Of a stretch of 34,971 bases of DNA, positions 1,108 to 34,835 are shown piece after piece. Source of the DNA: an uncultured Rhodospirillales bacterium (GTDB taxonomy: Bacteria > Pseudomonadota > Alphaproteobacteria > Azospirillales > Azospirillaceae); NCBI GenBank assembly GCA_903920145.1, contig CAIXKV010000020.1, forward strand, positions 1 to 34,971, written 5' to 3'. The stretch's first letter is position 1, and every line of letters starts with the position of its first letter. The position numbers and the translations under genes are program-made. A model generated the notes under the pieces. It did no database searches, was not told the DNA's origin, and worked only from the letters and a program-made list of their open reading frames with translations.

Positions 1108-1440
1108 ATGCCCTCCACTAATAGTGGGAAGATACAAGCCCTGAATGATCGTTTCCGCCAAACCTTCCAGGGTGGTTCCGTAATGATGACCCGAGGTATC
1201 CAGGCCCTTGGCGAACAAGCCGTAGCCGATATCCTCAACAAAGTTCGCACTTTTGACGCCTTCACGCCCGATAATGATCCCTACCAGGAGCACGACTTCG
1301 GATCGTTTCAGCACGACGGACAGAAAATATTCTTCAAACTTGATTATTACGACCAGAAGGGAGAGTTTGCCTCTCCCAATCCAGCCGATCCGGCCAAAAC
1401 CAAGCGGGTGTTGACCGTGATGTTAGCCGAAGAGTATTGA
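1108..1440 (+). CDS. DUF3768 family protein
   Basis: A 110-residue protein with the pattern I associate with DUF3768: 'ALNDRFRQTFQGG', then 'VRTFDAFTPDNDPYQEHDFGSF', then 'FKLDYYD', ending in 'RVLTVMLAEEY'. These small proteins are common on alphaproteobacterial plasmids and islands and have no known biochemical role. The start codon at 1108 is followed at once by a copy of the element palindrome (1115-1127), which encodes residues 3-7 (S-T-N-S-G). Either the palindrome has become part of the N-terminus, or translation really starts further in, at the Met-Met pair (residues 26-27). The gene converges on the helicase gene, with no gap between the two stop codons. Confidence 0.85.
   Translation: MPSTNSGKIQALNDRFRQTFQGGSVMMTRGIQALGEQAVADILNKVRTFDAFTPDNDPYQEHDFGSFQHDGQKIFFKLDYYDQKGEFASPNPADPAKTKRVLTVMLAEEY
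1115..1127. repeat. Element palindrome, copy 1
   Basis: CCACTAATAGTGG, six-base arms around a single A. It overlaps codons 3-7 of the DUF3768 gene. Confidence 0.85.
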
Positions 1441-2970
1441 CTATAAGTGCCGATTTCTGATCCCTGCTAACGCTCTTGCGGCGCTAAATACATCCGGGGT
1501 GTATTGCGGTTCATCCTCGTCCTGGGAAATATCGGCTGATTGGTTGCTCATCAGCCGATATTTTATTCCTCCGTTGGTTTTCTTCCATTTAATCAGCCTA
1601 TCTTCCAACTTTTTCATCTCCGTGCCAAAGCGTTTCGATGTATACACGCCATTGCCATACCGACTACGATACCACGGCAGGAAGTTCTCTACATATAGGA
1701 GGCTGCTACGCTTCCAATCTGTCCATATTTTGCTTGGAAATGCCCCATAATCCCGCTGGTCATCCAATACCCATTGCTCAACAAGCGTCTTCTGGCGAAA
1801 CTCCTCCTGTTTGGCTTTTGTATAGTCCTTAAATGGTTTAAGTGGGTCATCGCCGGTCTCGTCCACACTTTTCCATAAGCCAAGGAAATCAACGCCGTTT
1901 ATGACCTGCCAGCCGGCTTCATCAAGGTTTGCCCAGTTCAGTTGAATAAAGCGCCGCATCCCCGTGCTATCCTTGATTAACTCATCCAAGGTCTTATTGG
2001 ATGCGCCGATTAGGCTTGCCGCGTTGATTTCGTTGAAGTCATCGTGGGTGTTGAGCACACGGCCGGATACCACTTCCTTCGTGATCACATTCTTCAGAGC
2101 ATCAACATCGGTCTTCTCATAGCCTTCCATCTCGTCGACGATTAGCACCCAACGCTTCCAGAGTTGTCGGTTGCGGCTGTCGGTGATTTCCTTCAGGTTC
2201 GGGTAGGAGATGTTTTCGGCAATGGGGCTGACAAAACGCTTGATGAACTGGGTCTTGCCCGTGCCCTGGGAGCCGTAGAGCACCGGCATTATGTGGTCAA
2301 ACACCGGCAAGCCGACCATCTTGCGCTTGACCTGCCAAATGAACTTGCGCACCACGGCGGTGGTGTATTCAACTGGGTCGTCCTCTGTGAAGCAGGTTTC
2401 TGCCAGGGACTTCCATACTTCGGCACGCGCATTGCCGTCATACTGGACGGCCAGTTTTAGGGCTTCTCGGCGACGGATGGAGTTGGCCGATAGGTATTCG
2501 GTGAAGGCGTAGTTGATTATGCTGTCTCGGAAGCCCAGATCGAGTTCAGCATTCAGAAGTTGAAGCCTAACCCTGATTGTGTCTGTTGCCTCAATCGTCG
2601 TGTCATCGGACTTGGTGAGAAAGTTGTTCAGTAGGATTTCGATGCCATTATAGACTATGTATTGCTCTACCAGTTCCGATGCGGTAGCGGGAGTGCCGCC
2701 AATGCGCTCAATCACCTTGATGTCCCAAAGGGCTTTATTTCGCAGATCGTTCAGTTTTTTCAGGGTTTTGCGTGCCTCTGATAACTGCCGCTCCAGTTGG
2801 CGCTTGTTCCTTTCACGCAAGTTCTCCGCTATGTGCTGGTTATCGTGCGCCAGTGATTGCTCAATCCGCACGATCTCGGCTTCAATGTTGGTTATGTCTG
2901 CGTCGATCTGGCGCACTTCGTCGTAAATGGATTGCGTGTCTGTTTCGACTTTTGTGTTCTGTTGGTTCAT
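1441..2970 (-). CDS. VapE-like AAA+/SF3-type replicative helicase
   Basis: This 509-residue protein starts with a predicted coiled coil (residues ~15-85), followed by a linker and a C-terminal P-loop ATPase. The Walker A motif is GSQGTGKT at 233-240, Walker B is WVLIVDE at 274-280 with the following E-M-E, a sensor-1-like 'IGASNKT' follows, and there is an arginine-finger-like 'GMRRFIQL'. This order matches virulence-associated protein E (VapE) ATPases, which act with a primase to open and unwind origins of phage satellites and integrative elements. Its ATG overlaps the primase stop by four bases (ATGA), so the two are translationally coupled. The likely target is the iteron region upstream of the operon. 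The exact family name is inferred from motifs. Confidence 0.8.
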   Translation of the reverse strand: MNQQNTKVETDTQSIYDEVRQIDADITNIEAEIVRIEQSLAHDNQHIAENLRERNKRQLERQLSEARKTLKKLNDLRNKALWDIKVIERIGGTPATASELVEQYIVYNGIEILLNNFLTKSDDTTIEATDTIRVRLQLLNAELDLGFRDSIINYAFTEYLSANSIRRREALKLAVQYDGNARAEVWKSLAETCFTEDDPVEYTTAVVRKFIWQVKRKMVGLPVFDHIMPVLYGSQGTGKTQFIKRFVSPIAENISYPNLKEITDSRNRQLWKRWVLIVDEMEGYEKTDVDALKNVITKEVVSGRVLNTHDDFNEINAASLIGASNKTLDELIKDSTGMRRFIQLNWANLDEAGWQVINGVDFLGLWKSVDETGDDPLKPFKDYTKAKQEEFRQKTLVEQWVLDDQRDYGAFPSKIWTDWKRSSLLYVENFLPWYRSRYGNGVYTSKRFGTEMKKLEDRLIKWKKTNGGIKYRLMSNQSADISQDEDEPQYTPDVFSAARALAGIRNRHL

Positions 2971-4470: not shown

Positions 4471-4487
4471 CCCCACTAATAGTGGGG
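4471..4487. repeat. Element palindrome, copy 2
   Basis: CCCCACTAATAGTGGGG, eight-base arms around one A. It marks the left border of the ori1 repeat block. Confidence 0.9.
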
Positions 4488-4565
4488 CTGTCGCCCGTTT
4501 TCAGGCTCGTCATTGTGGCCGGGTCGGCTAATAAAAGGCGCGCTTGTGCTGGTGGAACAAAAAGA

Positions 4566-4879
4566 GTGTAGGATCAGAGCAAAAGTGTAGGATTAGTGTA
4601 GGGTAGAAAATCCGATCCTACACCCTTATTGTTATATAAATCAATGACTTATAGCAAAAGTGTAGGATGTGTAGGATTATTTAAGATTTAGTTTCAAAAA
4701 AATATTATTTCGAAAAAATATTTTCGCTTTTGTTTTTTTGCTCAAAATCACTAATAATCCTACACTTCCTTCACTTTCTCTTTTGTAAGTCAATAAGTCA
4801 TTGTATTTACAGGGCTTTTAGTGATCACTTCAGTGTAGGATCGGCTATTTCAATCCTACACCCGCTTTTGATCCTACAC
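4566..4879. other. Origin-of-replication-like iteron region, ori1
   Basis: Ten copies of GTGTAGGAT or its complement are visible: plus at 4566, 4585, 4596 (one mismatch), 4660, 4669 and 4833; minus at 4615, 4757, 4853 and 4871. The pair at 4660/4669 is in direct tandem. Between 4678 and 4752 lies a very AT-rich core with long A and T runs. The inner inverted repeat CAATGACTTA (4642-4651) / TAAGTCATTG (4794-4803) frames the core. Iterons on both sides of an AT-rich melting region are typical of helicase-primase-dependent origins such as those of SaPI-type satellites, and the primase/helicase operon starts ~460 bp away. Replication function is inferred. Confidence 0.75.
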
Positions 4880-4962
4880 TCTTCGGCATCCCGCCTTGTT
4901 ACTGGCGCTGGATCGAGGATGGTCGTAGCCAATCAGCGACCCCATCGTCGGTTGGCACCGCT

Positions 4963-4975
4963 CCACTAATAGTGG
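4963..4975. repeat. Element palindrome, copy 3
   Basis: CCACTAATAGTGG, at the right border of the ori1 repeat block. Its counterpart beside ori2 is at 16256-16268, offset exactly 11,293 bp. Confidence 0.85.
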
Positions 4976-5005: not shown

Positions 5006-5018
5006 CCCACTATTAGTA
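5006..5018. repeat. Element palindrome, degenerate copy 4
   Basis: CCCACTATTAGTA keeps the ACTATTAGT centre but has a damaged right arm. It lies 30 bp from copy 3, so the two form a close pair upstream of the small gene at 5078. Confidence 0.6.
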
Positions 5019-5890: not shown

Positions 5891-7099
5891 CTACAACATG
5901 TTGTTGTTTGCGCCAAAAACCTGCGACATGAGCGATTGCGCCAGCCGCTCCGCTTCGTGTGTGGCTGCGTCGTTCAGCGTCGCCATAGCCTCTATCTCGG
6001 AAGCCCTCTCGGCAAACTCTTGCTGAAGACCAAGCGGCGGCACCAGTGTTGGCAGCCTCACAAGCTTCGCCTGCGATATGTTCTTCATGCTGTCGCTGGT
6101 CCCGGTCGCCATCCTGCTCATTGCCACGCGAGTATGGCGTTGTTGAAGGAAATGAAGCATGAAGAAAGGAAGGATAATGGACCTCTCTTTCCAAACAAAT
6201 CGCCAGAGTTTATCGGGAAGGAGGATGTTTGTGGGTTTCTCATGGACGAACGCTGTTGCACCCACCAAATCAACCGTATTTGCTCGGCTGAACAGAAGGT
6301 CTCCCATCCGAACAAAGTGATTGCTAGGCGGTTTGTAGTCGTTCGGCGCTGGTTTATTTTCAGAACTTAAAAAATATCCGGACGTGACCGCACTCACCTT
6401 CAAAATACGAAGCCCACTGCCAGCCACATCATCACCAGCCTGAAGGTTTTTGCCACCTTCAAACCTATCAATGATGTCCCCAAGAGCCTTGACCGGCCAC
6501 CCCTTCGGATTGGTCGCCGGATCGCCGAACATATCGACGAAGAGTGCCGGGATGATTTCGCGCACCTTCGTTTGAGCCTGTTCCCGCAACCTCCTAATGC
6601 TCGCGGCGTGGTCAAGGATGTCCACGATCCGGCGCTGCTCATCCAGCGGCAGCATTGGAACGCTCAAGCCTTCGATATATCCGGCTGAAAGGCTATGAAC
6701 GGTTGCCCCCTTCTTCACCCCGTGGGAGAGCACCTCGCTTTCACGGGACTTTAGCAGCCAAAAAATGTATTCGGGTAAGCAGCGGCGCGCATCAACAACC
6801 AGTGCCTTGATATCTTGATTGAAGGCAACCGGTCGCGATGTGATAGCAACGGGCAACCTTCGGACCAGTATGCCCGAACGAACAACAACAAGAATACTTT
6901 GTTCGGGCACGACCCGTGTAGCGGACCCGTTTACTGCGTCGGCCGAAATATGGTCCTCAGCATCACCGACAATGTCCGGCCCCATATCTTTTGGCGATAC
7001 CCATGGTATATCACCACGCCAATATGACGGCTCCGCTTTGCTTGGGGTTCCACCGCTATAGATGGTTGCGACCTGCCGCAACGGGACCGCCGCAATCAT
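5891..7099 (-). CDS. hsdS: Type I restriction-modification specificity subunit HsdS
   Basis: A 402-residue protein with the two-part layout of HsdS. A first target-recognition domain starts 'VPLRQVATIYSGGTPS' and 'GDIPWVSPKDM', followed by a conserved helical spacer ('LPLDEQRRIVDILDHAASIRRLREQAQTKV'). The second domain starts 'WPVKALGDIIDRFEGGKN', followed by a second helical spacer at the C-terminus. HsdS reads the bipartite DNA target for both methylation and cutting. Its ATG overlaps the hsdM stop by four bases, so expression is coupled. The recognition sequence cannot be read from the protein. No frameshift is seen. Confidence 0.93.
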   Translation of the reverse strand: MIAAVPLRQVATIYSGGTPSKAEPSYWRGDIPWVSPKDMGPDIVGDAEDHISADAVNGSATRVVPEQSILVVVRSGILVRRLPVAITSRPVAFNQDIKALVVDARRCLPEYIFWLLKSRESEVLSHGVKKGATVHSLSAGYIEGLSVPMLPLDEQRRIVDILDHAASIRRLREQAQTKVREIIPALFVDMFGDPATNPKGWPVKALGDIIDRFEGGKNLQAGDDVAGSGLRILKVSAVTSGYFLSSENKPAPNDYKPPSNHFVRMGDLLFSRANTVDLVGATAFVHEKPTNILLPDKLWRFVWKERSIILPFFMLHFLQQRHTRVAMSRMATGTSDSMKNISQAKLVRLPTLVPPLGLQQEFAERASEIEAMATLNDAATHEAERLAQSLMSQVFGANNNML

Positions 7100-8718
7100 G
7101 CCGCACGCTCCCGCAACTTATCGGCAAGAGCCCCGAGTTCCTCAATGATCTCCGTTTCGATCGCTCGCAACTCGTCGATCAACTCCAGCGGATCACGGTG
7201 TTCGACCTGGGTCTGGGATTGCGGTCTATAGCGGCCTGCCGACAGATTGAAGTCGTTGGCCCGGATCGTATCGACGGTCGCGAACCACCACTTCTCCGAC
7301 CACTCCGCCTTGGCGTCTCGGGTCTGCCAGTCAGCCCACGCCAAATCCCGTTGCCGAAAATCCTCCACCAGCGTCAGGAGATCGTCGGCTTCGATGGGCG
7401 TGTCGTGGTTGGCGTCCAGTTTATAGCCGTCGGCATCGGCATGGAGGAACAGCACCCGCTCCGTCCGACCACCCTTGCGGAACAACAGCACCGATGTCTT
7501 GACGCCCGAATACGGCTGAAATACGCCACCCGGCAGGCTGACGACGGCCAGAACGGTGTTGTTCTCGATCAACTGGCGGCGCAACTCCTTGTGCGCCCCG
7601 GTGCTGCCGAACAGCACGCCTTCGGGAACGACCACGCCGCACCGACCACCATCCTTCAGGCTGTTCATCATGTATTTTACGAACAGGAGTTCGGTCGCGG
7701 TGCCAGTGCCGACCCGCACGTCATCAACAATGCGGTCCTTGTCCAACTTTCCTGAAAACGGGGGATTGGCGAGCACGACATCGTAGCCGTTCAGCGGCAG
7801 CCCGCGTTCCGCCCGCTCCGCACGTTCCATGGTGCTGGTCAGGACATTGCGCTTCAGGATGTGAACATCGGACAGGCCGCGCAGCATCAGGTTCATGGTG
7901 GAAAGGCGCACCATGGCCGGATCGACATCGTTGCCGTAGAAGGTGGCGTGGCGAAGTTTGCTCAACAGCGGGGCGCTCAACTTGTCGCCGAAGCCGCGAC
8001 GGACGATCTTGCCGTCGAGTTCCGCTTCCCTGATCCCGGCAGCCGTCGAGTTCGCCAGCCGGATATGGTCATAGGCACCAACCAGGAAGCCAGCAGTTCC
8101 GGCGGCCGGGTCGTAGATGGTCTCGCCGACCTTGGGATCGATCATGGAGACGATCGCCCGGATGATGTGGCGCGGTGTGCGGAACTGGCCCAACTCGCCG
8201 GCCTGCTTGACCTGCTTCAGCACATGCTCGAACAGGTCGCCCTTGGTGTCGCCGTCCGCTTCATCGAGGTGGAGGTTGTCGATCAGGTTGACCACTTGGG
8301 ACAGGACGGTCGGTTCGTCAATCACCAAACGGGCATCGCGCAGGAAGTTGGTGGAGGTCTGTTCGGCGACCTCACGGTAAAACGCAAACACCTCGTCTCG
8401 CACCCAACGGACAAGGCCATCGCCGGTCATCTTGCTCCACACGCTCCACCGGAGACGGTCGGCCGGAACCTTGGTCATGCCCTGCGCGGTGGCGTTGAGC
8501 GGGTTGACCAAAGTCCACTCCCCGCCGAACATGCTATGGTATTCGGTCTTTTTGCCCCTGGCGATGTCCTTGTTGTCCTCGTCCAGACCCTCGACGAGAT
8601 AGAAGAAGAACAGGAACGCCATCTGCTCCGCGTTGGTCAGCGGGTTCGGGTAGCCGCCGCCATAAAGATAGTCGCGGATTTGCTCAACACCGCGCCGCAT
8701 TTCCGGGGTCATGGGCAT
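7096..8718 (-). CDS. hsdM: Type I restriction-modification methyltransferase HsdM
   Basis: A 540-residue N6-adenine methyltransferase subunit. Its N-terminal helical domain is followed by a SAM-binding motif I, DPAAGTAGFL (203-212), and the catalytic NPPF (318-321). Segments such as 'GQFRTPRHIIRAIVSMIDP' are typical of HsdM. With HsdS it methylates the host genome at the system's target. It starts 18 bp after the hsdR stop and overlaps hsdS, so the operon order is R-M-S. Length is normal and the catalytic residues look intact. Confidence 0.95.
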   Translation of the reverse strand: MPMTPEMRRGVEQIRDYLYGGGYPNPLTNAEQMAFLFFFYLVEGLDEDNKDIARGKKTEYHSMFGGEWTLVNPLNATAQGMTKVPADRLRWSVWSKMTGDGLVRWVRDEVFAFYREVAEQTSTNFLRDARLVIDEPTVLSQVVNLIDNLHLDEADGDTKGDLFEHVLKQVKQAGELGQFRTPRHIIRAIVSMIDPKVGETIYDPAAGTAGFLVGAYDHIRLANSTAAGIREAELDGKIVRRGFGDKLSAPLLSKLRHATFYGNDVDPAMVRLSTMNLMLRGLSDVHILKRNVLTSTMERAERAERGLPLNGYDVVLANPPFSGKLDKDRIVDDVRVGTGTATELLFVKYMMNSLKDGGRCGVVVPEGVLFGSTGAHKELRRQLIENNTVLAVVSLPGGVFQPYSGVKTSVLLFRKGGRTERVLFLHADADGYKLDANHDTPIEADDLLTLVEDFRQRDLAWADWQTRDAKAEWSEKWWFATVDTIRANDFNLSAGRYRPQSQTQVEHRDPLELIDELRAIETEIIEELGALADKLRERAA

Positions 8719-8736
8719 AAGGCTGGTTCCCGTCGT

Positions 8737-10875
8737 TCAACTGGCTTGTGATCGCGCCCCGGCTGTCCGCTCACCGTCGGCTGGCGCAGTAAACAGAGCA
8801 TCGTTGAGGCTGGCAAGCATCTCGTCCAACCGCTCTGCCCCACCAAACACCTGCCGCGCCCGCTGGATGCCTCCGTTCTCTGAAAAGGGGCTCTGCCGGA
8901 AATGGTAGGTTTCAAAACTTTCGAGGTCGCTGGCATTCGCCTTGATCTGGCTCTCGATGAGACGCAACAGCCGCATCTGGTCGCTATTGAAGGTCTGCCG
9001 TGCCAGCCACGCCTCGAACCTGATACCGAGCCCAACAGCCAACGCCTCGTCCTCCGGGGTTGGCGCGAAGTTGCCGCTGTCATCAATAACCCAGCCGCGC
9101 GTGGTCGGATCGATATGGTCATGGACATCAAGGGTCAACAACCGCCGGGACTCGCGGTTCGGGTCTCGTGGTTTGGACTGGGTTGTAAACCCGCCATCTG
9201 GCAGTTCATCCTCGTCATCGCCGTGGAAGTCAGCCACACCAACGAAATCGAACATGGTGAAGTTGACCTTCTTGATATGATCAGCCTTCCGGGTGCCACG
9301 GCCGCGCATCTGCTGGTAAAGAGTGGCGCTTCGGGTAAACCGCGCAAACACGAGGTTGACGGCTTCCGGATAGTCAAACCCCGTGTCCAGCATGTTGACG
9401 CTGACCAGGATCATGGGAAACTGCTCTTTCTTGAACCGTTCAATCCGCATCGCGGCATCGGCTGTGTCGTCGCCGCCCATGCCAGACACCACGAAGTCGG
9501 CATAGCGAACTTCCGGTGATGGCTTTTTGTCCGCAAAGGCTTGGTCGAACATCTGCGCCAACGCTTCGGCGTGCCGCTTGTTCACCGCAAACACGATGGT
9601 CTTGCCCCACTGCGGCGCACGGCGCACGCCGTCCTTCCCGGTGAAACCCTTTTCCAGGACATCGCGAAACTCCCGAACCATGGAGCGGTTGCGCTCCGGG
9701 ATCGTGAACTTGCGCTCCAGCGCGGACGGATCGACGGTGATGCTATCTTGCCCGGCGAACAGGACTTCGAACTCGTTTCGGGTCTGCTCGTCCATGGCCG
9801 ACCAATCCAACTCGTCGCGACGAACCTCGAAGCCGCCTTCAGCGGCTGTCCGCACGGTCATCGCCTTGTATATTTGATAGGGAACCAGATAGCCTTCCTG
9901 AACCGCCTGCCGTAGGGTGTAGCGGTAGGTTGGTTGCTCCACCTCGAAGAAGCGGAGGGTGTCCTTGATAAAGGCTCCGTCTTCAGGGTCTGGCAGGTTG
10001 TCAAGATCACGAAAGACGCAGGGTGTAGCGGTCAACCCGACCTGAACGCCGTCAAAGTGTTTGAGAACACCGCTCCACTTACCGTAGATCGAACGATGGC
10101 ACTCGTCTGAAATGACCAAATCGTAATAGCCAGATGAAAAGTTCGCGTATTCTCCGATAAAGGTTTGGAGGGTAGCGATAGTTATGACTTTCTCGTCCTT
10201 AAACTTGCCAGAACGCATAATGTGGCAGGGATAGTCGGGAAGATACTCTGCGAAAGCATCTTCTGTCTGTTTTGCGAGATTGATGCGATCCACAAGAAAC
10301 AAGACGCGGGTGATGGCATTTGCTTGGAACAGCCGCTTGATAAGTGCTGCCGCTGTGCGGGTCTTGCCGGTGCCGGTTGCCATCTCGACTAACATCTTGC
10401 GGCGCCCGAGGTTGATTTCGCGGCAAAGAGTATCTATACACTCCTTTTGATAAGGCCGTCCGGCGATATGTTTATCAATCGCAACGGTAAGCGGATCGAC
10501 GCGAAGTTTTTGTTTCGCGGCCCGGCGTTCAAGATCAGCCTGCGAAAATACCGTCTTGAGCGGCCGTGGGTGTGCCTCGGTCTCCCACTCCCAGAACCAA
10601 ACCTCTTCGCCGTTCGCAAGGAAGATGAACGGCACATTGAGTTGACGGGCGTATCCCAGGGCTTGGCCTTCGGCTTCGACAGGATTGATCGACGCGCGCT
10701 TGGCTTCCAGAACTGCCAGACTATGACCACGGCGGGAACACAGCGCATAGTCGGCCTTGGTTCCGTCGGGAAGCAGATACTCGAAATGAACGCTTCGCCC
10801 ATCGGTCAGGTTCCAACCGGCGTCTTTGAGTTGAGCATCGATTTTGACGCGGGAGAAGGCTTCGTTCGTCGCCAT
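8737..10875 (-). CDS. hsdR: Type I restriction endonuclease subunit HsdR (EcoEI-like)
   Basis: A 712-residue subunit, read from ATG 10875 ('MATNEAFSRVKIDAQL'); an upstream in-frame start at 10917 has no better ribosome-binding site. The PD-(D/E)xK nuclease site is D42 plus 'VLEAKR' (E57, K59). The translocase has Walker A 'GTGKT' (168-172), DECH (257-260), 'GLTATP', and the helicase motif 'QMRGRGTRKADH'. At ~700-800 residues it resembles the shorter EcoEI-type HsdR rather than the ~1,000-residue EcoKI type. It is the first gene of the hsd operon. The promoter should lie between 10876 and 11063, where palindrome copy 5 sits. Confidence 0.93.
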   Translation of the reverse strand: MATNEAFSRVKIDAQLKDAGWNLTDGRSVHFEYLLPDGTKADYALCSRRGHSLAVLEAKRASINPVEAEGQALGYARQLNVPFIFLANGEEVWFWEWETEAHPRPLKTVFSQADLERRAAKQKLRVDPLTVAIDKHIAGRPYQKECIDTLCREINLGRRKMLVEMATGTGKTRTAAALIKRLFQANAITRVLFLVDRINLAKQTEDAFAEYLPDYPCHIMRSGKFKDEKVITIATLQTFIGEYANFSSGYYDLVISDECHRSIYGKWSGVLKHFDGVQVGLTATPCVFRDLDNLPDPEDGAFIKDTLRFFEVEQPTYRYTLRQAVQEGYLVPYQIYKAMTVRTAAEGGFEVRRDELDWSAMDEQTRNEFEVLFAGQDSITVDPSALERKFTIPERNRSMVREFRDVLEKGFTGKDGVRRAPQWGKTIVFAVNKRHAEALAQMFDQAFADKKPSPEVRYADFVVSGMGGDDTADAAMRIERFKKEQFPMILVSVNMLDTGFDYPEAVNLVFARFTRSATLYQQMRGRGTRKADHIKKVNFTMFDFVGVADFHGDDEDELPDGGFTTQSKPRDPNRESRRLLTLDVHDHIDPTTRGWVIDDSGNFAPTPEDEALAVGLGIRFEAWLARQTFNSDQMRLLRLIESQIKANASDLESFETYHFRQSPFSENGGIQRARQVFGGAERLDEMLASLNDALFTAPADGERTAGARSQAS

Positions 10876-10985
10876 ATTGCCACCAGGGCCGTGGATTATG
10901 TCGAGAGAATACCACAATCACGGCGTAGAGGAAGGCGCGCGTCGGGGCCGATCACCTGGACACGTCATCAACGAGTTTCCAGTGC

Positions 10986-11000
10986 CCCACTAATAGTGGG
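10986..11000. repeat. Element palindrome, copy 5
   Basis: CCCACTAATAGTGGG, seven-base arms around one A. It lies ~110 bp upstream of hsdR, in the gap before the unknown gene at 11064, and is therefore a candidate operator for the hsd operon. Confidence 0.9.
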
Positions 11001-11588: not shown

Positions 11589-11828
11589 CTTGCTCTCCCC
11601 CATAAGCGCGGAACATCGAAGGGAAGGCTACCATAGCCCACATGGTCGGTGCCAGACCGCTCGGACAGCCCTGCCCAAAGAGCGCCAGAAAAAACCTCAT
11701 ATAATCCGCATTCTATGGGGTTCTGCCCCAAACCCGCACCAACACAGAGTTTCAATCAGGGGTTGATTTCGGCTCTGCCAGGAAACATAATAATAGGTAG
11801 GAAAACACAGCATTTAATGAGGTTCGCT

Positions 11829-12395
11829 ATGAAACAGGCACGCGTTCTGACGGAGCAGGAACAGAAGCGGTTGCTGGCCGTGGTAGCACAGGGCAAGCAC
11901 GCGGCCAGGAACCGGCTGGCAGTGATCTTGTCCTATCAGGCAGGGCTGCGGGTGGGGGAGATTGCTTCACTATTAGTGAAGGATGTCTACACGCCAGAGG
12001 GCATCGTGCGGGAGCAGGTGCGCTTGTCGGCGGAGATCACGAAGGGCGGCAACGCCCGTGTGGCGTTCGTAAACGCCAAACTCCAGAAGGAACTGGAGCG
12101 ATACCTTCCCACTATTAGTGGGAGAAAGCCCGATCAGCCGTTGCTGATGACGCAGAAGCGGACGGCGTTTAGCCCGAACACGCTTTGCCAGTTGATGGGG
12201 CAGTTGTATACAGCGGCCGGGCTTGATGGCGCGACCAGTCATTCGGGTCGTAGGTTTTTTATCACGAAGTTGGCCCATTCAGGTATCAGCCCGAAGGTGA
12301 TTATGACGCTGGCGGGGCACAAGCACCTAACGACAACGCAGCGCTACATCGAGGTCAATGACGACCTGATGCGCGCTGCGGTTGAAGTGCTGTAG
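11829..12395 (+). CDS. Short tyrosine recombinase (catalytic domain only)
   Basis: A 188-residue XerC/integrase-like enzyme read from ATG 11829; the frame is open to 11649 but that part has no protein character. All catalytic residues are visible: R41 in 'AGLRVGEIASL', K72, H138 and R141 in 'SHSGRR', H164 in 'LAGHKHLTTTQRYIE', and nucleophile Y173. The SAM-like N-terminal DNA-clamp domain is missing, as in FimB/FimE-type invertases. Two element palindromes lie inside the reading frame, encoding residues around 47-51 (SLLVK) and 94-98 (PTISG), without breaking it. It ends seven bases from the convergent gene at 12403. It is probably an active recombinase with an unknown target. Confidence 0.85.
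   Translation: MKQARVLTEQEQKRLLAVVAQGKHAARNRLAVILSYQAGLRVGEIASLLVKDVYTPEGIVREQVRLSAEITKGGNARVAFVNAKLQKELERYLPTISGRKPDQPLLMTQKRTAFSPNTLCQLMGQLYTAAGLDGATSHSGRRFFITKLAHSGISPKVIMTLAGHKHLTTTQRYIEVNDDLMRAAVEVL
11965..11981. repeat. Element palindrome, copy 6 (TT/AA variant, in coding sequence)
   Basis: CTTCACTATTAGTGAAG, eight-base arms around one T. The usual CC..GG next to the core is replaced by TT..AA on both sides, a compensating change that keeps the symmetry. It lies inside the recombinase gene. Confidence 0.85.
12107..12123. repeat. Element palindrome, copy 7 (in coding sequence)
   Basis: TCCCACTATTAGTGGGA, eight-base arms. It encodes PTISG in the recombinase, between the conserved lysine and the H-x-x-R box. 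Confidence 0.9.
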
Positions 12396-12973: not shown

Positions 12974-13609
12974 TTAGTCGTCCTTGCGCTTGTCATGGTT
13001 CTTGAGCCACATTTCAACGATAGGCGGAAGTTTCATTTCACTCTCGTCAGGCTGAGAAAGCCTATCAATAGCCCACTTAATCGCAGATTGTTGCGCCGAG
13101 TTGCGCTTGTTTTTATTACTTTGCTTGATGCTACCCTTTCCCCAACCTTTTTCGGAATACTCGTCGTAAAACTCGTTCGGGATGGGCGGGGGATAATCTT
13201 CGATACGTTCGAACGGAGACCACTTGTCTTCAACCCGGTCAGACCGAGTGAACAGGTTTTGATCTGACAGGCTCAGTTGCTCGAAGCGTTCGATAATGGC
13301 TTCACTTTTAGTGAAAATCTTCCTGCGCAACTTCTGTGTTTGATCATACGGCTTTTTAGCAATCAGGTTCGAAAAACGGATGAGTTTCTTGATGTCCTCC
13401 CAGAGTTTCTCGGCATCAGCTGAAGCGTTATCTTTGAACGTGTTGTAAGTCATAGAACCGTCGATAGTCTGTACTTCTTCCTCGGTCAGCAGGCCCCGCA
13501 GAAGGGCGATTTTAATGACGGCTTCCTCGTCGGTTTCCAAGTTCTCCAGCATTTGCCGAAGTTTGGCGATCTTGAACCGCTTTGCGATGTCATCTTCAGG
13601 AATAGCCAT
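12974..13609 (-). CDS. Hypothetical charged protein
   Basis: This 211-residue protein starts at ATG 13609 with a weak GGAAG site upstream. It is highly charged and mainly helical ('IAKRFKIAKLRQMLENLETDEEAV', 'KKLIRFSNLIAKK'), with a basic, Asn/Gln-rich stretch ('KGSIKQSNKNKRNSAQQSAIKWAID') and a charged C-terminus. It may bind nucleic acid, but that rests only on composition. It is followed at 31 bp by the 12403 gene. A degenerate palindrome lies inside it at 13301-13315. Family unknown. Confidence 0.6.
   Translation of the reverse strand: MAIPEDDIAKRFKIAKLRQMLENLETDEEAVIKIALLRGLLTEEEVQTIDGSMTYNTFKDNASADAEKLWEDIKKLIRFSNLIAKKPYDQTQKLRRKIFTKSEAIIERFEQLSLSDQNLFTRSDRVEDKWSPFERIEDYPPPIPNEFYDEYSEKGWGKGSIKQSNKNKRNSAQQSAIKWAIDRLSQPDESEMKLPPIVEMWLKNHDKRKDD
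13301..13315. repeat. Element palindrome, degenerate TT/AA copy 8
   Basis: TTCACTTTTAGTGAA: six-base arms TTCACT/AGTGAA match, but the centre is TTT instead of AWT. It lies inside the 12974 gene and may be a chance match. Confidence 0.45.
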
Positions 13610-13666: not shown

Positions 13667-13679
13667 CCACTATTAGTGG
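13667..13679. repeat. Element palindrome, copy 9
   Basis: CCACTATTAGTGG, directly after the stop of the frameshifted AT-hook gene and next to the hairpin at 13639-13664. Confidence 0.85.
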
Positions 13680-13680
13680 C

Positions 13681-15010
13681 TTACGCGGCTTTGCGGAGCG
13701 TCTTGCGCAGTTCCTCGATCGCCTTCTCGTTAGCGACCGGGATACCCAACTTGCGAGCGAGGCCCGACACCGCACCCTTGACCGCAGCGTTGGTCTCGTC
13801 GAAGTCCAGCGGCCCGATGATCTCCAACTCGCCGTTGATGACCCGAGCAGCCAGGATCACCATCCCAGCAGTCGCGGTGATCACCTCCGGCTTCGGCACC
13901 GTCGCGACGGGCACGATCTCCTCGTTGGTAGCGATCAGCACCGCATCGTCCTCGCTCATAACGATCCGCGCCGTCGGCTTGGTCGGCCGGGTCAAGCCGC
14001 GCTCGAAGTTGATGATGCCGAACAGCTTCTTGCCGTAGCCCTTCTCTTCAAAGGCTTCGATGAAGTCGGCAACATCCGCAGGCAAAACTCCCTTGCGGTT
14101 AAGGTGCTTCAAGACGTAGGCATACTTTTCAGCACTGCGGTTGTGAACCCACTTGGTCAAGTTTTTCAGACCAGCGAACTCAACCGCTTCGGCGCTGAAG
14201 TCGAACTTTCCCCAGAACAAGCGGGCCGCCTGGAAGTAGAAGGCGCCTTCCCCGTAGTTGAAGATCAATCTGCCGACGCTGACCAGCCTTGATCAGTTCA
14301 GCCAAACCCTCGTTGGTCTCGACCGCGTTAGTCAGGTATTCGTGAACCATCGCGATCTGGACGTAGGTGCGGCGGTGGCCGAACTCCCGGAACTCCTCCA
14401 GCGAAGCCTCAACCGCGTTGACGCGGCTGATCAACTCCTCAAGCGAGCGGTAGGGCTTGGCGAGATCCAGATCAGCCGCCTTACCACGCTTCACGATGTT
14501 GTCCAGTTCCGAGTGGGTGGTCGGCGTCAGGACCGGAACCGTCGAAACGACCGGCTGCCGCACCATCGGCAGAGGCGCCTTAGTCCCACTATTAGTGGGA
14601 GCCGGGCTGTTGCTGTTGACCGGAGCCGGGACCGTGCTCACCGAAGGGGCGGCCACCTGCGCCTTCTTCGGGCGACCGGGCTTGCCCTTGGTCTTGGTCG
14701 TGAAGGTCACGACCCGCGTTTCGGTCGTCGTCTCCGGGACGACCGGGGCGTCGGGGGTGGCCGTGATGACCGGCGTATCGGTGTTAGCCTGAAGGGCCTG
14801 CCGCGCCTTCACCTTCGCGATGATTTCCTTCGCGGTGGGCTCGCGGGTTTCGGGGGCCACCACTTCAGTGGTGGTCGGGACCGGCTGCGTTTCCAGCCGC
14901 ACAAGGTAGGCACCATTGGCGTAGCCGAAGTTGGTGCCGAGGGAGAGGTCGAACGCCTGCTTGGTTTCGGTGGCAGGAGCGACGTTCTGATTGCTGATGA
15001 TCTTACGCAT
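13681..15010 (-). pseudogene. Pro/Thr-rich AT-hook protein with a frameshift (two frames)
   Basis: Frame one runs from ATG 15010 ('MRKIISNQNVAPATETKQAF') to about 14275, then drifts into a Leu/Arg-rich tail ending at 14180. Frame two continues naturally from about 14275 ('LIFNYGEGAFYFQAARLFWG') to the stop at 13681; its only start there would be a TTG. Joined, they give one protein of ~440 residues. It has an ordered N-terminus, a disordered Pro/Thr/Val-rich middle (residues ~42-165) holding an AT-hook-like KGKPGRPKK (108-116), and a helical C-terminal domain. DNA binding is a reasonable inference. A palindrome encodes PTNSG at ~138-142. The break may be a real mutation, recoding, or a sequencing error; no classical slippery heptamer is seen. 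Confidence 0.65.
14584..14600. repeat. Element palindrome, copy 10 (in coding sequence)
   Basis: TCCCACTATTAGTGGGA, eight-base arms, inside the disordered region of the AT-hook gene. Confidence 0.9.
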
Positions 15011-15464: not shown

Positions 15465-15707
15465 CTACATATTCCGGCCGCCTATGTAAAGGATGAACAA
15501 ACGCCTCGCGGGCATAGCAAATATGTAAATACCGAATGCCATATGGCCTGAATATTGCTTGATGACATCTTTATCGGGCATTTTATCACTGTGGTATTTT
15601 ATATGCTTTCTCGTAGGTGTCCAACATTTTATCCATCTTTGTCGCAAACTCATCCGGCTTGCCCCACTATTAGTGAAGCCGACTTCCCGGTTGGCGTAGC
15701 CAACCAT
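15465..15707 (-). pseudogene. Small ORF disrupted near a palindrome copy
   Basis: An 80-codon frame starts 'MVGYANREVGFTNSGASRM' and ends 'LYIGGRNM' at 15465, but the part after the palindrome is poor in protein character. A one-base shift at the palindrome's right edge instead gives 'GKPDEFATKMDKMLDTYEKA', ending 'YKIPQ' with a stop near 15572, which looks like a natural small-protein C-terminus. The likely original is a ~37-residue (or longer) protein in the second frame, broken at palindrome copy 11. A terminator follows at 15381-15416. Function unknown. Confidence 0.4.
15665..15675. repeat. Element palindrome, copy 11 (mixed arms)
   Basis: The CACTATTAGTG core is intact, but the flanks are CCC on the left and AAG on the right: half of the GC variant joined to half of the TT/AA variant. 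It lies inside the small broken ORF. Confidence 0.7.
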
Positions 15708-15761: not shown

Positions 15762-15780
15762 GTCCCACTAATAGTGGGAC
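15762..15780. repeat. Element palindrome, copy 12 (longest)
   Basis: GTCCCACTAATAGTGGGAC, perfect nine-base arms around one A. This is the best copy in the window, at the left border of the ori2 repeat block. Confidence 0.92.
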
Positions 15781-15858
15781 GAATGGACCTAAATGGCGCC
15801 CATTATTGCGGCCGTGTCGGCTAACAAAAGGCCCATTGATGTGGTGGAACGAGAAATA

Positions 15859-16172
15859 GTGTAGGATCAGAGCAAAAGTGTAGGATTAGTGTAGGATCAG
15901 AAAATCGATCCTACACCATTTTTGTTATATAAATCAATGACTTACAGCAAAAGTGTAGGATGTGTAGGATTATTTGATGTTTTCTCGAATATTTTGTGTT
16001 TTATGAAAAATATTTTTGTTTTTGTTTTTTTTACTCCAAATCACCCATAATCCTACACTTCCTACACTTTCGCTTTATTAAGTCAATAAGTCATTGTATT
16101 TACAGGACTTTTTGTGATCACTTCAGTGTAGGATCGGCCATTTCAATCCTACACTCGCTTTTGATCCTACAC
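15859..16172. other. Origin-of-replication-like iteron region, ori2
   Basis: GTGTAGGAT or its complement occurs at 15859, 15878, 15889, 15953, 15962 and 16126 (plus) and at 15908, 16050, 16146 and 16164 (minus), with one extra variant at 16059. The AT-rich core spans ~15971-16045. The inner inverted repeat is CAATGACTTA (15935-15944) / TAAGTCATTG (16087-16096). The spacing is identical to ori1. No primase or helicase gene lies beside this copy; the integrase gene does. It may be used in trans by the replication proteins encoded at 1441-4106. Confidence 0.72.
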
Positions 16173-16255
16173 CCTTCGGCATCTCGCCTTATTACAGGCG
16201 CAGGGATTGGGCTGGTCGTAGCCAATGAGCGGCCCATCATCGGCCGGCAATGCCC

Positions 16256-16268
16256 CCACTATTAGTGG
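16256..16268. repeat. Element palindrome, copy 13
   Basis: CCACTATTAGTGG, between ori2 and the integrase C-terminus. It is the positional equivalent of copy 3. Confidence 0.85.
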
Positions 16269-16369: not shown

Positions 16370-17698
16370 TCATATCCAGAAGCCCAAGTTGTCCGACATC
16401 GGCCAGCCCCTGAGGCGGCAATAGCCCCTTGCTGCGAAGATAGGCGCGGGTCTGCTCGATGGTGCCCTGCTTGTGTAGTGCTCCTTCAGGACATCCGTGC
16501 TGTTGCCCATCTGCTCTTCCAGCCAGGGGTAGTCCTTTCCTTCGGCCAGTGCGAAGGTGGCGTAGGTATGGCGCAGGCTGTAGGGCGTATAGGGCATCTC
16601 GTCGGCCCTGATCGGAAAGTGGCACCGCTTGACCACCTCGCGGAACATATCGCTGAAATGCCGATGCGGCGTTCCATCCGGCAGGCTGAACACGGCTTCG
16701 GCAGGACTGAAGGTCTGCCCGTGTGCGCTTGCGAACCCGAGTCGGCGCGCCTTCATCGTATCGAACCGCTTCCTGACGCGATCATCGAACACGACCTGCC
16801 TTTGGCCGGTTTTGGTCTCGGGATGAACCGACAGGATATTGGTGTCGGTGTGGATGTCGTTCCAGGTCAGTTTCAGCGGCTCGTGGGGCGGCCGGATGCC
16901 GGTGTGCCGACAGATGAACACATAATCGCACAGGAGTTCACGGCGCACCCGAGTGAACTCGTTCTTGGCCTCCTGGAGATATTTTTCTGCCTCTGCCATA
17001 AACTTGTCGAAATCGCCACCGAGAAAAGCAGGCCGAGGATTGGCTTTGGGGTTCTCGGGCTTGACCTCTGGCACAGCGAACTTGCCGAAATACCCACGCT
17101 TTCGGGCATATTCCAGAATACCGCGAAGGGTTGGATATTCACGGTTCAAGGTGTGTGGAGATGGCTCTTCGTCATAGTTGGCCCGCTGTTTTCCAGATAT
17201 AAGAATGCCCTTCTGGCGCTCCTCGCTGTTATCCTCTTCGACATCAAGCCAGAAACAGCGGCGCCAGAACTTGTAGTCGTCGATCATTGCCTCATCGATC
17301 TGACCGACGCTAATAACCTTGCGCTTGTCGTGAAAGTATGGAACCAAAAACTTGCGGATATTGGCCGCTTTGTTTTCCTTGTCTTTAGCCTGGGTTGCCA
17401 GCCACTCCTCAGCGACCTCCTTGAAGTCTTTCCGGTAAAGGTCAAGGTCAGTGAGATCATACCAGCGGCCGGTCGGGTCTTTCAGGTAAGCGGCGTATGC
17501 TTGGAAGGCTTTGTCCCTGGCTTCTTTTTCGCTACTGGTCTTCAGTGATCTGGGAATGAAGTTGTTTCCGACCTTGTAGAGATACCAGGTCGGCTTCCTC
17601 TGGACGCTTCGTTGAGCGATCCAGAGTTCGTCGGTCAGAACCTTGATGTTGGTGTAGGCTGGGACTGCCTGTGGCGTCGGTGCCGCCTTCTGTGCCAT
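16370..17698 (-). CDS. Tyrosine integrase with a late frameshift
   Basis: A 442-codon phage-type integrase: an N-terminal arm-binding and SAM-like region (to ~residue 200), then a catalytic domain with R in 'RHTGIRPPHEPLKL', K in 'ETKTGQRQVV', the R-II box 'YTPYSLRHTYATFAL' and the nucleophile in 'MGNSTDVLKEHYT'. Just after that tyrosine (near 16480) the frame becomes unnatural ('SRAPSSRPAPIF...'). A +1 frame instead gives 'KQGTIEQTRAYLRSKGLLPP' and ends 'ALVPTKGKRKG' at 16296, which looks like the original C-terminus. One base therefore seems lost. All catalytic residues remain, so activity is uncertain rather than excluded. It lies ~0.7 kb from tRNA-Ala and probably catalysed integration there. 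Confidence 0.85.
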   Translation of the reverse strand: MAQKAAPTPQAVPAYTNIKVLTDELWIAQRSVQRKPTWYLYKVGNNFIPRSLKTSSEKEARDKAFQAYAAYLKDPTGRWYDLTDLDLYRKDFKEVAEEWLATQAKDKENKAANIRKFLVPYFHDKRKVISVGQIDEAMIDDYKFWRRCFWLDVEEDNSEERQKGILISGKQRANYDEEPSPHTLNREYPTLRGILEYARKRGYFGKFAVPEVKPENPKANPRPAFLGGDFDKFMAEAEKYLQEAKNEFTRVRRELLCDYVFICRHTGIRPPHEPLKLTWNDIHTDTNILSVHPETKTGQRQVVFDDRVRKRFDTMKARRLGFASAHGQTFSPAEAVFSLPDGTPHRHFSDMFREVVKRCHFPIRADEMPYTPYSLRHTYATFALAEGKDYPWLEEQMGNSTDVLKEHYTSRAPSSRPAPIFAARGYCRLRGWPMSDNLGFWI

Positions 17699-17766: not shown

Positions 17767-17779
17767 CCACTAATAGTGG
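17767..17779. repeat. Element palindrome, copy 14
   Basis: CCACTAATAGTGG, ~70 bp upstream of the integrase start. It is the last well-formed copy; a degenerate half (CCCACTACTAAG) is at 18108-18119. Confidence 0.85.
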
Positions 17780-18412: not shown

Positions 18413-18488
<76 letters not shown>

Positions 18489-21049: not shown

Positions 21050-22042
21050 ATGAAAACGGTCGCTTTCTTTAATAATAAAGGCGGCGTCGGTAAGACTTGT
21101 TTGGCTTATCATCTGGCTTGGACGTTCGCCGACCATGGCATCTCCGTCATCGCTGCCGATCTCGATCCACAATCAAATTTGACGTCGGTCTTTCTGAGTG
21201 AGAAGCGTCTTGAAAACATTTGGGGGGCCAACGATCATCGCCATAGCTTGATGTGGAGCCTTGGCCCCATTCTGGAAGAAGTCGGAGATATCAAGCCGCC
21301 CTGGATTGAAAAAATAAATGAAAGAATTTCTCTAATCGTTGGAAATCTCTCTTTATCCTCTTTTGAGGATAAATTATCGACTCAATGGCCACTATGCTTG
21401 GACTGTGATCCTGCGGCCTTTCGAATTACATCAGCTTTTTATCGAATTCTTGAGGCCGCAGCCAACCAAATGAATGGTACCGATATTGTCCTCATGGATG
21501 TCGGTCCTAATTTAGGAGCGATCAATCGTTCCGCATTAATTTCCGTTGATCATGTGGTTATTCCCTTAATCCCGGATTTATTCTTTCTTCATGGATTGCG
21601 GAATCTTGGGCCAACGCTGCGTAATTGGAGAGAGGGGTGGAAGGAACGATTGGAACGATATACAGAATTAGATTTATCGTTACCAAGAGGCCTTTTATCC
21701 CCAGAGGGCTATGTGGTTATGCAATACTCGGTCCGCCTGGATCGCCCCGTTCGGGCTTATGAGCATTGGATGAAGCAAATTCCTATCGAATACCGATATG
21801 CGGTACTCAATGAGACGGTCAATACCCTTCTCACTGTTGATAACGACCCGCATTGCCTGGCACAAATCAAGAATTATCGCAGCCTGATGCCGATGGCCAT
21901 GGAGGCCAAAAAGCCGATGTTCCATCTTCGACCTGCCGATGGAGCGATTGGTTCTCATCAGCAGGCGGCGCTTCAGTGCCGTGACGACTTTACCGCTCTG
22001 GCACGACAAATTGGCCAACGCATCGGTCTTAGAAAGTTCTGA
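21050..22042 (+). CDS. ParA/MinD-like P-loop ATPase, orphan
   Basis: A 330-residue protein with the deviant Walker A KGGVGKT (residues 10-16) preceded by 'MKTVAFFNN', then 'VIAADLDPQSNLT' (A'-type motif) and 'DIVLMDVGPNLGAINRSAL' (Walker B region). ParA proteins move plasmid, chromosome or protein cargo by ATP-driven patterning on the nucleoid. No parB or parS-like site is next to it. It is inserted between aroA and cmk, usually neighbours, and is clearly AT-richer than both (for example 21300-21600), pointing to acquisition. Its stop is four bases before cmk, so it could drive cmk transcription. The cargo is unknown. Confidence 0.88.
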   Translation: MKTVAFFNNKGGVGKTCLAYHLAWTFADHGISVIAADLDPQSNLTSVFLSEKRLENIWGANDHRHSLMWSLGPILEEVGDIKPPWIEKINERISLIVGNLSLSSFEDKLSTQWPLCLDCDPAAFRITSAFYRILEAAANQMNGTDIVLMDVGPNLGAINRSALISVDHVVIPLIPDLFFLHGLRNLGPTLRNWREGWKERLERYTELDLSLPRGLLSPEGYVVMQYSVRLDRPVRAYEHWMKQIPIEYRYAVLNETVNTLLTVDNDPHCLAQIKNYRSLMPMAMEAKKPMFHLRPADGAIGSHQQAALQCRDDFTALARQIGQRIGLRKF

Positions 22043-24841: not shown

Positions 24842-24961
24842 GGTATCGGGCCGCGACGGCGGCCCCGCGTCCTCGTGGACGCGAAGCCAAGGGCGCGGAG
24901 GCGCCCGCCCGGCGTCTGAGGGCAGCCTTGATGAGTCACCATCAAGGCTTGATGGTATCAT
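24842..24961 (+). repeat. Chromosomal intergenic repeat, copy A
   Basis: It starts GGTATCGGGCCGCGACGGC and ends with the hairpin GCCTTGATG/CATCAAGGC (24924-24948). Positions 24901-24948 are identical over 48 bases to 34762-34809. It lies between rpsA and the cytochrome c gene and may also act as a transcription stop for the latter. Confidence 0.85.
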
Positions 24962-24982
24962 GCCATCAGGGCTCGACGATAC

Positions 24983-34705: not shown

Positions 34706-34820
34706 GGTATCGGCGGCGACCGCCGCTGCGCGCCCCATGGCGCGAAGCCAAGGGCGCGGATGCGCCCGCCCGGCGTCTGAGGGCAGCCTTGATGAGTCAC
34801 CATCAAGGCCCGATGGTATC
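34706..34820 (+). repeat. Chromosomal intergenic repeat, copy B
   Basis: Same family and orientation as copy A, with GGTATCGGCGGCGACCGCC at the start and the GCCTTGATG/CATCAAGGC hairpin near the end. It lies next to the right-hand IS end. Confidence 0.85.
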
Positions 34821-34835
34821 AGACCAACGGCCTTA

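Follow-up and report, generated by a model that had tools for sequence, protein, structure and literature searches.

Two palindromes are read through in frame by a short tyrosine recombinase gene in the window, the 34,971-nucleotide stretch of DNA that was analysed and that is contig C20 of its own 4.26-Mb genome (269 contigs). The locus raises the question of what such palindromes do inside codons, and whether they or another sequence are the target of the enzyme. Judged from sequence comparison, the chances are about even that the palindromes are dispersed operators of a putative island regulator and that the recombinase is a dif-type resolvase. The evidence suggests that the in-gene palindrome is a DNA control site within protein-coding sequence and not an inserted repeat. 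A regulatory site preserved as DNA in coding sequence, at one codon in two island lineages that differ in site sequence, would be a clean natural case of dual coding, and the island palindromes would offer a handle on the master regulator of a defence-carrying island family.

The recombinase and its candidate site

The recombinase locus contains the following features.

11693..11722: candidate crossover site AACCTCATATAA-TCCGCA-TTCTATGGGGTT, dif-like, at -136 from the ATG
11813..11824, plus strand: half-site TTTAATGAGGTT just before the ATG, overlapping the likely Shine-Dalgarno sequence
11829..12395, plus strand: tyrosine recombinase, catalytic domain only, 188 aa (PF00589, homologue alignment, AlphaFold)
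11966..11980: in-frame palindrome 1, TTCACTATTAGTGAA, at codons 47-51 (S-L-L-V-K), in this copy only
12107..12123: in-frame palindrome 2, TCCCACTATTAGTGGGA, at codons 94-98, the codon column also used by 6/6 Magnetospirillum recombinases

The ORF at 11829-12395 matches PF00589 (Phage_integrase) in Pfam with an E-value of 4.9e-25 over residues 6-178. In an alignment of 16 homologues R41, K72, R141, H164 and Y173 are invariant and H138 is nearly so; these six correspond to the RKHRHY catalytic set. A complete active site had been claimed in an earlier reading of the sequence alone (the sequence-only reading), and the retained residues and the Pfam match bear it out. Among solved structures the protein aligns solely with the C-terminal part of XerC-like 4a8e (chain 103-273), and its N-terminal domain is therefore absent. 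Pfam, the structure match and the predicted model all have the protein begin at the catalytic domain, with the core-binding domain ahead of it missing, in agreement with the earlier claim that an N-terminal clamp domain is lacking. A core-binding domain before the catalytic domain is described as a trait of simple or complex tyrosine recombinases (PMC8138268). The AlphaFold model has a pLDDT of 74 and a low-confidence C-terminus, which probably accounts for the rmsd of >10 in a Foldseek search where XerA/XerD were best (TM ~0.55). The likeness to invertases that had been proposed holds only in part. The recombinase is equal in size to the catalytic-only FimB/FimE invertases and their models align nearly end to end with it, but the scores of 31.9 and 29.5 are far under the cut-offs of 221 and 222. 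Unlike FimB/FimE, there is one candidate site per gene, and neither the loci nor the whole genomes contain an inverted pair flanking a switch segment; with a single candidate site, inversion is disfavoured. Homologues with 62-82% identity come from Azospirillum, Roseomonas, Rhizobium, Magnetospirillum and others, and short relatives are widespread, a relative of any degree being carried by 1137/72,556 plasmid records.

Upstream of the recombinase ATG, a 12-6-12 inverted repeat with arm consensus AACCTCATAAAA occurs in 18/20 close homologues (each of two pairs was counted once: L015 and L049 represent a single locus, and L150 has the recombinase region of L046). It is located at -135 to -137 or at -153 to -157, and the arms are kept while the spacer differs between loci. 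In 15 homologues this dif-like site outranks all other inverted repeats in the 250 bp upstream, with a shuffle p of <0.05 in 11, 0.067-0.097 in three and 0.43 in SO1a; in SS4_3, KUZ and L052 it was recognised by arm consensus alone. It was not found upstream in L055, in L057 or in the two distant plasmid relatives, and under a shuffle test of complementarity only, the site falls short of p < 0.05 in 11/22 upstream regions. A degenerate pattern searched genome-wide has one match in the own genome and two each in A. lipoferum and P. carboxyditropha (G467, G471), and 5/5 matches are upstream of a recombinase copy, one copy being truncated. Two further genomes with deviating arms gave no match to this pattern. 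Within the loci, partner sites with a score >30 were absent except upstream of recombinase copies and at L050 7966, which is an alternative reading of the near-ATG half-site. In the window that half-site, TTTAATGAGGTT, overlaps GAGG, which may be read as the likely ribosome-binding sequence.

The target of the recombinase is probably the upstream dif-like 12-6-12 repeat and not the palindrome. Palindromes as sites of the enzyme were considered and rejected, the palindrome being variable or absent among homologues that keep the upstream site. Because there is one site per gene and no partner, a dif-type resolvase is preferred over an invertase or a cassette shuffler; a single site fits resolution, and integration elsewhere is also compatible with it. 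With its adjoining site, the recombinase could be a minimal resolvase. As a separate observation, the loci L044 and L045, from two genomes, share a stretch at ~7000-8558 with 87-100% identity in each 60-nt block; the likeness runs to the final nucleotides of the recombinase gene, beyond which they are unrelated. Within the shared stretch the two have different letters at three neighbouring positions of the dif-like spacer.

Palindromes in the gene and across the islands

Both palindromes were confirmed to be in frame in the recombinase gene, at codons 47-51 and 94-98, the core of the second (CCCACTATTAGTGGG, 12108-12122) being read as P-T-I-S-G. They had been described as one of each sequence variant; variants do exist, but they differ in their flanks (TTC..GAA vs CCC..GGG), and CACTATTAGTG and CACTAATAGTG are merely the two strands of a single odd palindrome. 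The idea that the palindrome invades tolerant loops in lengths divisible by three, with PTISG as a possible insertion, was not upheld by alignment with homologues. Codons 47-51 are ungapped against close homologues, and the loop at codons 94-98 is no longer, and sometimes shorter, than in palindrome-free close homologues (rows L015, L016, L019 and L020 were left out of the codon alignment, and L016 was entered in a separate comparison of codons 94-98). With no extra codons at the site, insertion of a palindrome into the gene was ruled out. Nor do palindrome-free homologues have the same residues in unrelated codons, the case named in advance as speaking against the earlier reading: their residues differ. 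The residue stretch at palindrome 2 is variable among other homologues, and the predicted model places it where a helix ends and a loop begins. A generally conserved mRNA hairpin at codons 94-98 was also rejected, homologues without an iterated palindrome showing only weak stems of 4-6 bp there; in L047 and L048 a 13-nt palindrome or near-palindrome occupies the site.

The in-frame copies belong to a much larger set. With up to two mismatches, CACTATTAGTG has 32 matches in the window, most sites being scored on both strands, vs 3.85 expected and a maximum of 8 in 100 shuffles, a density that is therefore not due to chance. Exact CACTATTAGTG occurs at 18 sites in the own genome, 12 on C20 (all left of 17.8 kb), four on C108 and two on C263. 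The palindrome is taken as an island signature because 18/18 sites are on these three contigs, all of which carry island genes. In a family search of the other 81 genomes, CACTATTAGTG was present once or twice in nine and absent from 72, and CCACTATTAGTGG was found in 3/385 genomes of the class, with 13 copies in the own genome and one in each of two others. Viral contigs gave CCCACTATTAGTGGG in 15, with one match each that was judged to be chance, and TGTCGTGTWACACGACA in three. All three palindrome contigs have genes of PADLOC-type defence families (SspF and PDC-S19 on C108/C263). C108 carries paralogues of the VapE-like gene (79% identical) and of the DUF3768 gene (89% identical), and a DUF6641-like gene is common to C108 and C263. 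At the start of the DUF3768 gene the palindrome occupies equal codons in C20 and C108 with altered flanks. Flank changes are paired in the window lineage: at the position adjoining the 11-mer 13 sites are C-G, four are T-A and one is mixed (Fisher p 0.0016).

The left 18 kb of the window resembles an integrated island beside tRNA-Ala (18413-18488), with the following features.

1116..1126: palindrome in the DUF3768 gene, codons 3-7 (equal place in the C108 paralogue, altered flanks)
1441..2970, minus strand: VapE-like / P4-type replication protein, 509 aa (C108 paralogue 79% identical)
4474..4484: intergenic palindrome, left of an AT-rich repeated unit (motif search)
4964..4974: intergenic palindrome, right of the AT-rich repeated unit (motif search)
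5008..5018: degenerate intergenic palindrome CACTATTAGTA (mismatch search)
5891..10917, minus strand: type I restriction-modification cargo hsdS, hsdM, hsdR (Pfam, PADLOC)
10988..10998: palindrome 71 bp upstream of the hsdR ORF start (motif search)
13303..13313: degenerate palindrome CACTTTTAGTG within a 211-aa ORF (mismatch search)
13668..13678: palindrome 59 bp upstream of the 211-aa ORF, which is on the minus strand (motif search)
14587..14597: palindrome within overlapping ORFs of 276 aa (minus) and 263 aa (plus) (motif search)
15665..15675: intergenic palindrome with mixed flanks CCCC..GAAG (motif search)
15766..15776: intergenic palindrome, left of the second AT-rich unit (motif search)
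16257..16267: intergenic palindrome, right of the second AT-rich unit (motif search)
16370..17698, minus strand: island integrase, 442 aa (PF00589, E 3.9e-08), near tRNA-Ala 18413-18488
17768..17778: palindrome 70 bp upstream of the integrase start (motif search)

Three ORF starts (hsdR, the 211-aa ORF and the integrase) thus have a palindrome 59-71 bp upstream. The AT-rich units (4505-4942 and 15798-16235) are ~440 bp long, 83-86% identical and contain internal inverted repeats of the AAAGTGTAGGATGTGTAGGATTAT type; each is flanked by two palindromes 490-491 bp apart, and the units are possibly a replication origin or control region. The ORFs at 14180-15010 and 13681-14268 (both minus strand) overlap in different frames, have no Pfam or NCBIfam match and may be one frameshift-broken gene; the former contains an AT-hook-like motif, GKPGRPKK. 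Outside the island, a solitary ORF for a ParA-like ATPase (KGGVGKT; 21050-22042, plus strand) is apparently flanked by aroA and cmk, and an 86-bp direct repeat (24880-24965 and 34741-34826) is 94% identical.

The window palindrome is absent from the loci of close recombinase homologues. A search of these loci for iterated palindromes gave CGTGT-W-ACACG in three Magnetospirillum-type loci only; these islands have their own dispersed palindrome, TGTCGTGT-W-ACACGACA, unlike that of the window. Genome-wide, the three Magnetospirillum-type genomes contain 20, 20 and 6 copies of CGTGTAACACG on two, five and one contigs, and 30, 23 and 10 places match the relaxed form TGTCGKGNNNCMCGACA, 3/10 of those in the third genome being off the island contig. 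The other 12 genomes searched have TGTCGKGNNNCMCGACA at one and two places in two and none in ten. Six recombinase genes were found in the Magnetospirillum regions, each of 567 bp and gap-free with 59% of columns invariant, and the palindrome is in frame in 6/6. Its centre is at nt 286 of these genes vs nt 287 of the window gene, within a single codon column. Among the 551 stretches of 17 nt in the six genes, the palindrome is the best conserved, with 16/17 columns invariant and the centre base (A/T) as the sole varying column. Third codon positions are invariant at 6/6 inside the palindrome vs 41/183 elsewhere, which argues that the in-gene palindrome is selected as DNA; this applies to the Magnetospirillum copies, the window lineage being represented by one recombinase. 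The tree forces at least two changes of the label "palindrome in gene", so the window and Magnetospirillum in-gene copies are not one clade, although the placement of the window gene is weakly supported.

Where genes were called by a simple script, 34 of 47 Magnetospirillum sites are intergenic, four are over the stop of one small gene, six are at the recombinase codon (one of them recognised separately) and three are elsewhere in genes. From the intergenic majority and the three sites elsewhere in genes it follows that the copy in the recombinase is more than one random coding match among many. Other palindromes are directly after integrase stops. The Magnetospirillum half-sites covary (Fisher p 1e-5, with 8/60 sites mixed), and in both lineages the flank variants are paired changes. 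Two side observations concern these and related islands. A contig of Magnetospirillum sp. SS-4 has three related islands in a row (L139-L141) with three recombinases, each with a different 6-bp dif-like spacer. An inverted repeat, CCGTA-N1-5-TACGG, recurs in islands L053, L140, L144, L145 and L044, with some copies near cargo ends.

Regulation weighed against other roles

Operators of an island regulator are favoured because the sites are near ORF starts or integrase stops, the half-sites are symmetric and the sequence is lineage-specific. Like lambda-type operators, the odd palindrome places its two half-sites about one helical turn apart. In the proposed mechanism, an island-encoded dimeric DNA-binding protein would recognise the odd palindrome, and the scattered copies would serve as operators and transcription roadblocks that hold the island silent. 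At the in-frame copy the same regulator would halt or dampen recombinase transcription from inside the gene. The recombinase would act as a single-enzyme resolvase at the adjacent dif-like site and resolve multimers of the excised, replicating island. Counted against operators is the location of many palindromes at gene ends rather than promoters. Of the two explanations offered in the sequence-only reading, spreading and autoregulation, a regulatory role is the better, but pure autoregulation is too narrow because the palindrome is island-wide and lineage-dependent while the candidate site of the recombinase is constant. A cognate repressor was not recognised among the island proteins scanned, which come from broken contigs. 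DUF6641 is common to both palindrome lineages and is also in loci without iterated palindromes (L045, L050 and L150); its predicted fold had 0 matches in the PDB at E <= 0.001. In the own genome DUF6626 is confined to a palindrome-free contig. A literature search on island palindromes returned nothing on the window motif, and another returned no text naming DUF6641, DUF6626 or DUF3768.

A rather doubtful alternative is that the in-frame palindrome is an accessory site, from which an island DNA-binding protein, positioned at a defined spacing from the core, would permit or prevent recombination, the other palindromes being operators. The centres of the dif-like core and of the in-gene palindrome, in the window palindrome 2, are 407.5 bp apart in 7/7 palindrome-bearing genes of two lineages, which is the pattern expected of an accessory recombination site, and one codon column is common to both lineages. 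Compared with Magnetospirillum, both elements of the window are shifted by 1 bp, the core towards the ATG and the palindrome deeper into the gene, and the distance is kept because these shifts cancel. However, the distance is largely a consequence of the ungapped gene and of conservation upstream, so that its constancy may be incidental; an iterated palindrome is also missing from the gene in 11/18 homologues that have the core site. If the in-frame copy were an accessory site, the lineages would have converged on one codon since distance matters, and co-resident islands sharing a recombinase family would be controlled apart via a private palindrome and a private 6-bp spacer.

It is unlikely that a partition and silencing protein of ParB/KorB type nucleates at the palindromes, with the in-gene copy as one loading site among many. 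Plasmid RK2 carries about twelve KorB operators, and like these the island palindromes are symmetric, belong to a mobile element and occur both close to promoters and away from them. Unlike RK2, there is no KorB/ParB homologue among the island proteins scanned (part of the ORFs, with contigs broken). A partition protein also leaves the codon-exact recombinase copy unpredicted, and to our knowledge a fixed in-codon site within a recombinase has no counterpart in the KorB system. The scatter of a symmetric site over the island does agree with KorB, which uses OB sites near and >1 kb from promoters (PMC11790492). Quite unlikely is an RNA or single-stranded hairpin with a role in transcript stability, replication or transfer, in which pairing and not protein recognition is conserved. 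The stems are 8-9 bp with a 1-nt centre and the half-sites covary, which also fits such a hairpin, but 8/60 Magnetospirillum sites are mixed at the covarying position and the near-identical sequence at every site suits a protein site better.

Rickettsia RPE and HIP1 are self-spreading palindromic repeats, and the many copies, several of them within genes, and the two flank variants would suit a repeat of this kind fallen into tolerant positions. This is nevertheless very improbable: unlike RPE-like mobile palindromic repeats, the in-frame copies are not insertions relative to homologues, the site is more conserved than its host gene in six related genes, and one codon column is used in two lineages with at least two changes forced. 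Hardly any credence is given to the palindromes as recombinase crossover sites that shuffle cargo modules. Three Magnetospirillum islands regain homology exactly at a cargo-adjoining palindrome, but that boundary coincides with the end of the neighbouring gene. Most homologues are without an iterated palindrome yet keep the upstream dif-like site, and the palindrome changes between lineages while the dif-like site is constant.

Comparison with known systems

As dispersed operators, the palindromes resemble the stoperators of cluster A mycobacteriophages (L5, Bxb1) in being element-specific and dispersed over the island. Stoperators are present in many copies across the element, mostly outside promoters, where the repressor blocks elongation, with a consensus that varies between related elements (PMC6550527), and are asymmetric sites of a monomeric repressor (PMC9283540). 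Unlike stoperators, which are asymmetric and mostly in one orientation, the island sites are symmetric odd palindromes, and the repressor is only putative here.

For the recombinase, the nearest comparison is with XerS/difSL and XerH/difH, where one tyrosine recombinase has a dif-like site beside its gene (PMC5357621). The window likewise has a single recombinase with an adjoining dif-like site, with arms of ~11-12 bp and a 6-bp spacer. XerS (356 aa) and XerH are full-length and chromosomal, whereas the recombinase here is island-borne and without the N-terminal domain. TnpI/IRS of Tn4430 has a core site and an extra binding motif near the recombinase gene, and the window also combines a core site with an additional motif adjoining the gene. 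Unlike Tn4430, no Tn3-type transposase was seen, and the extra motif is a half-site over the ribosome-binding region.
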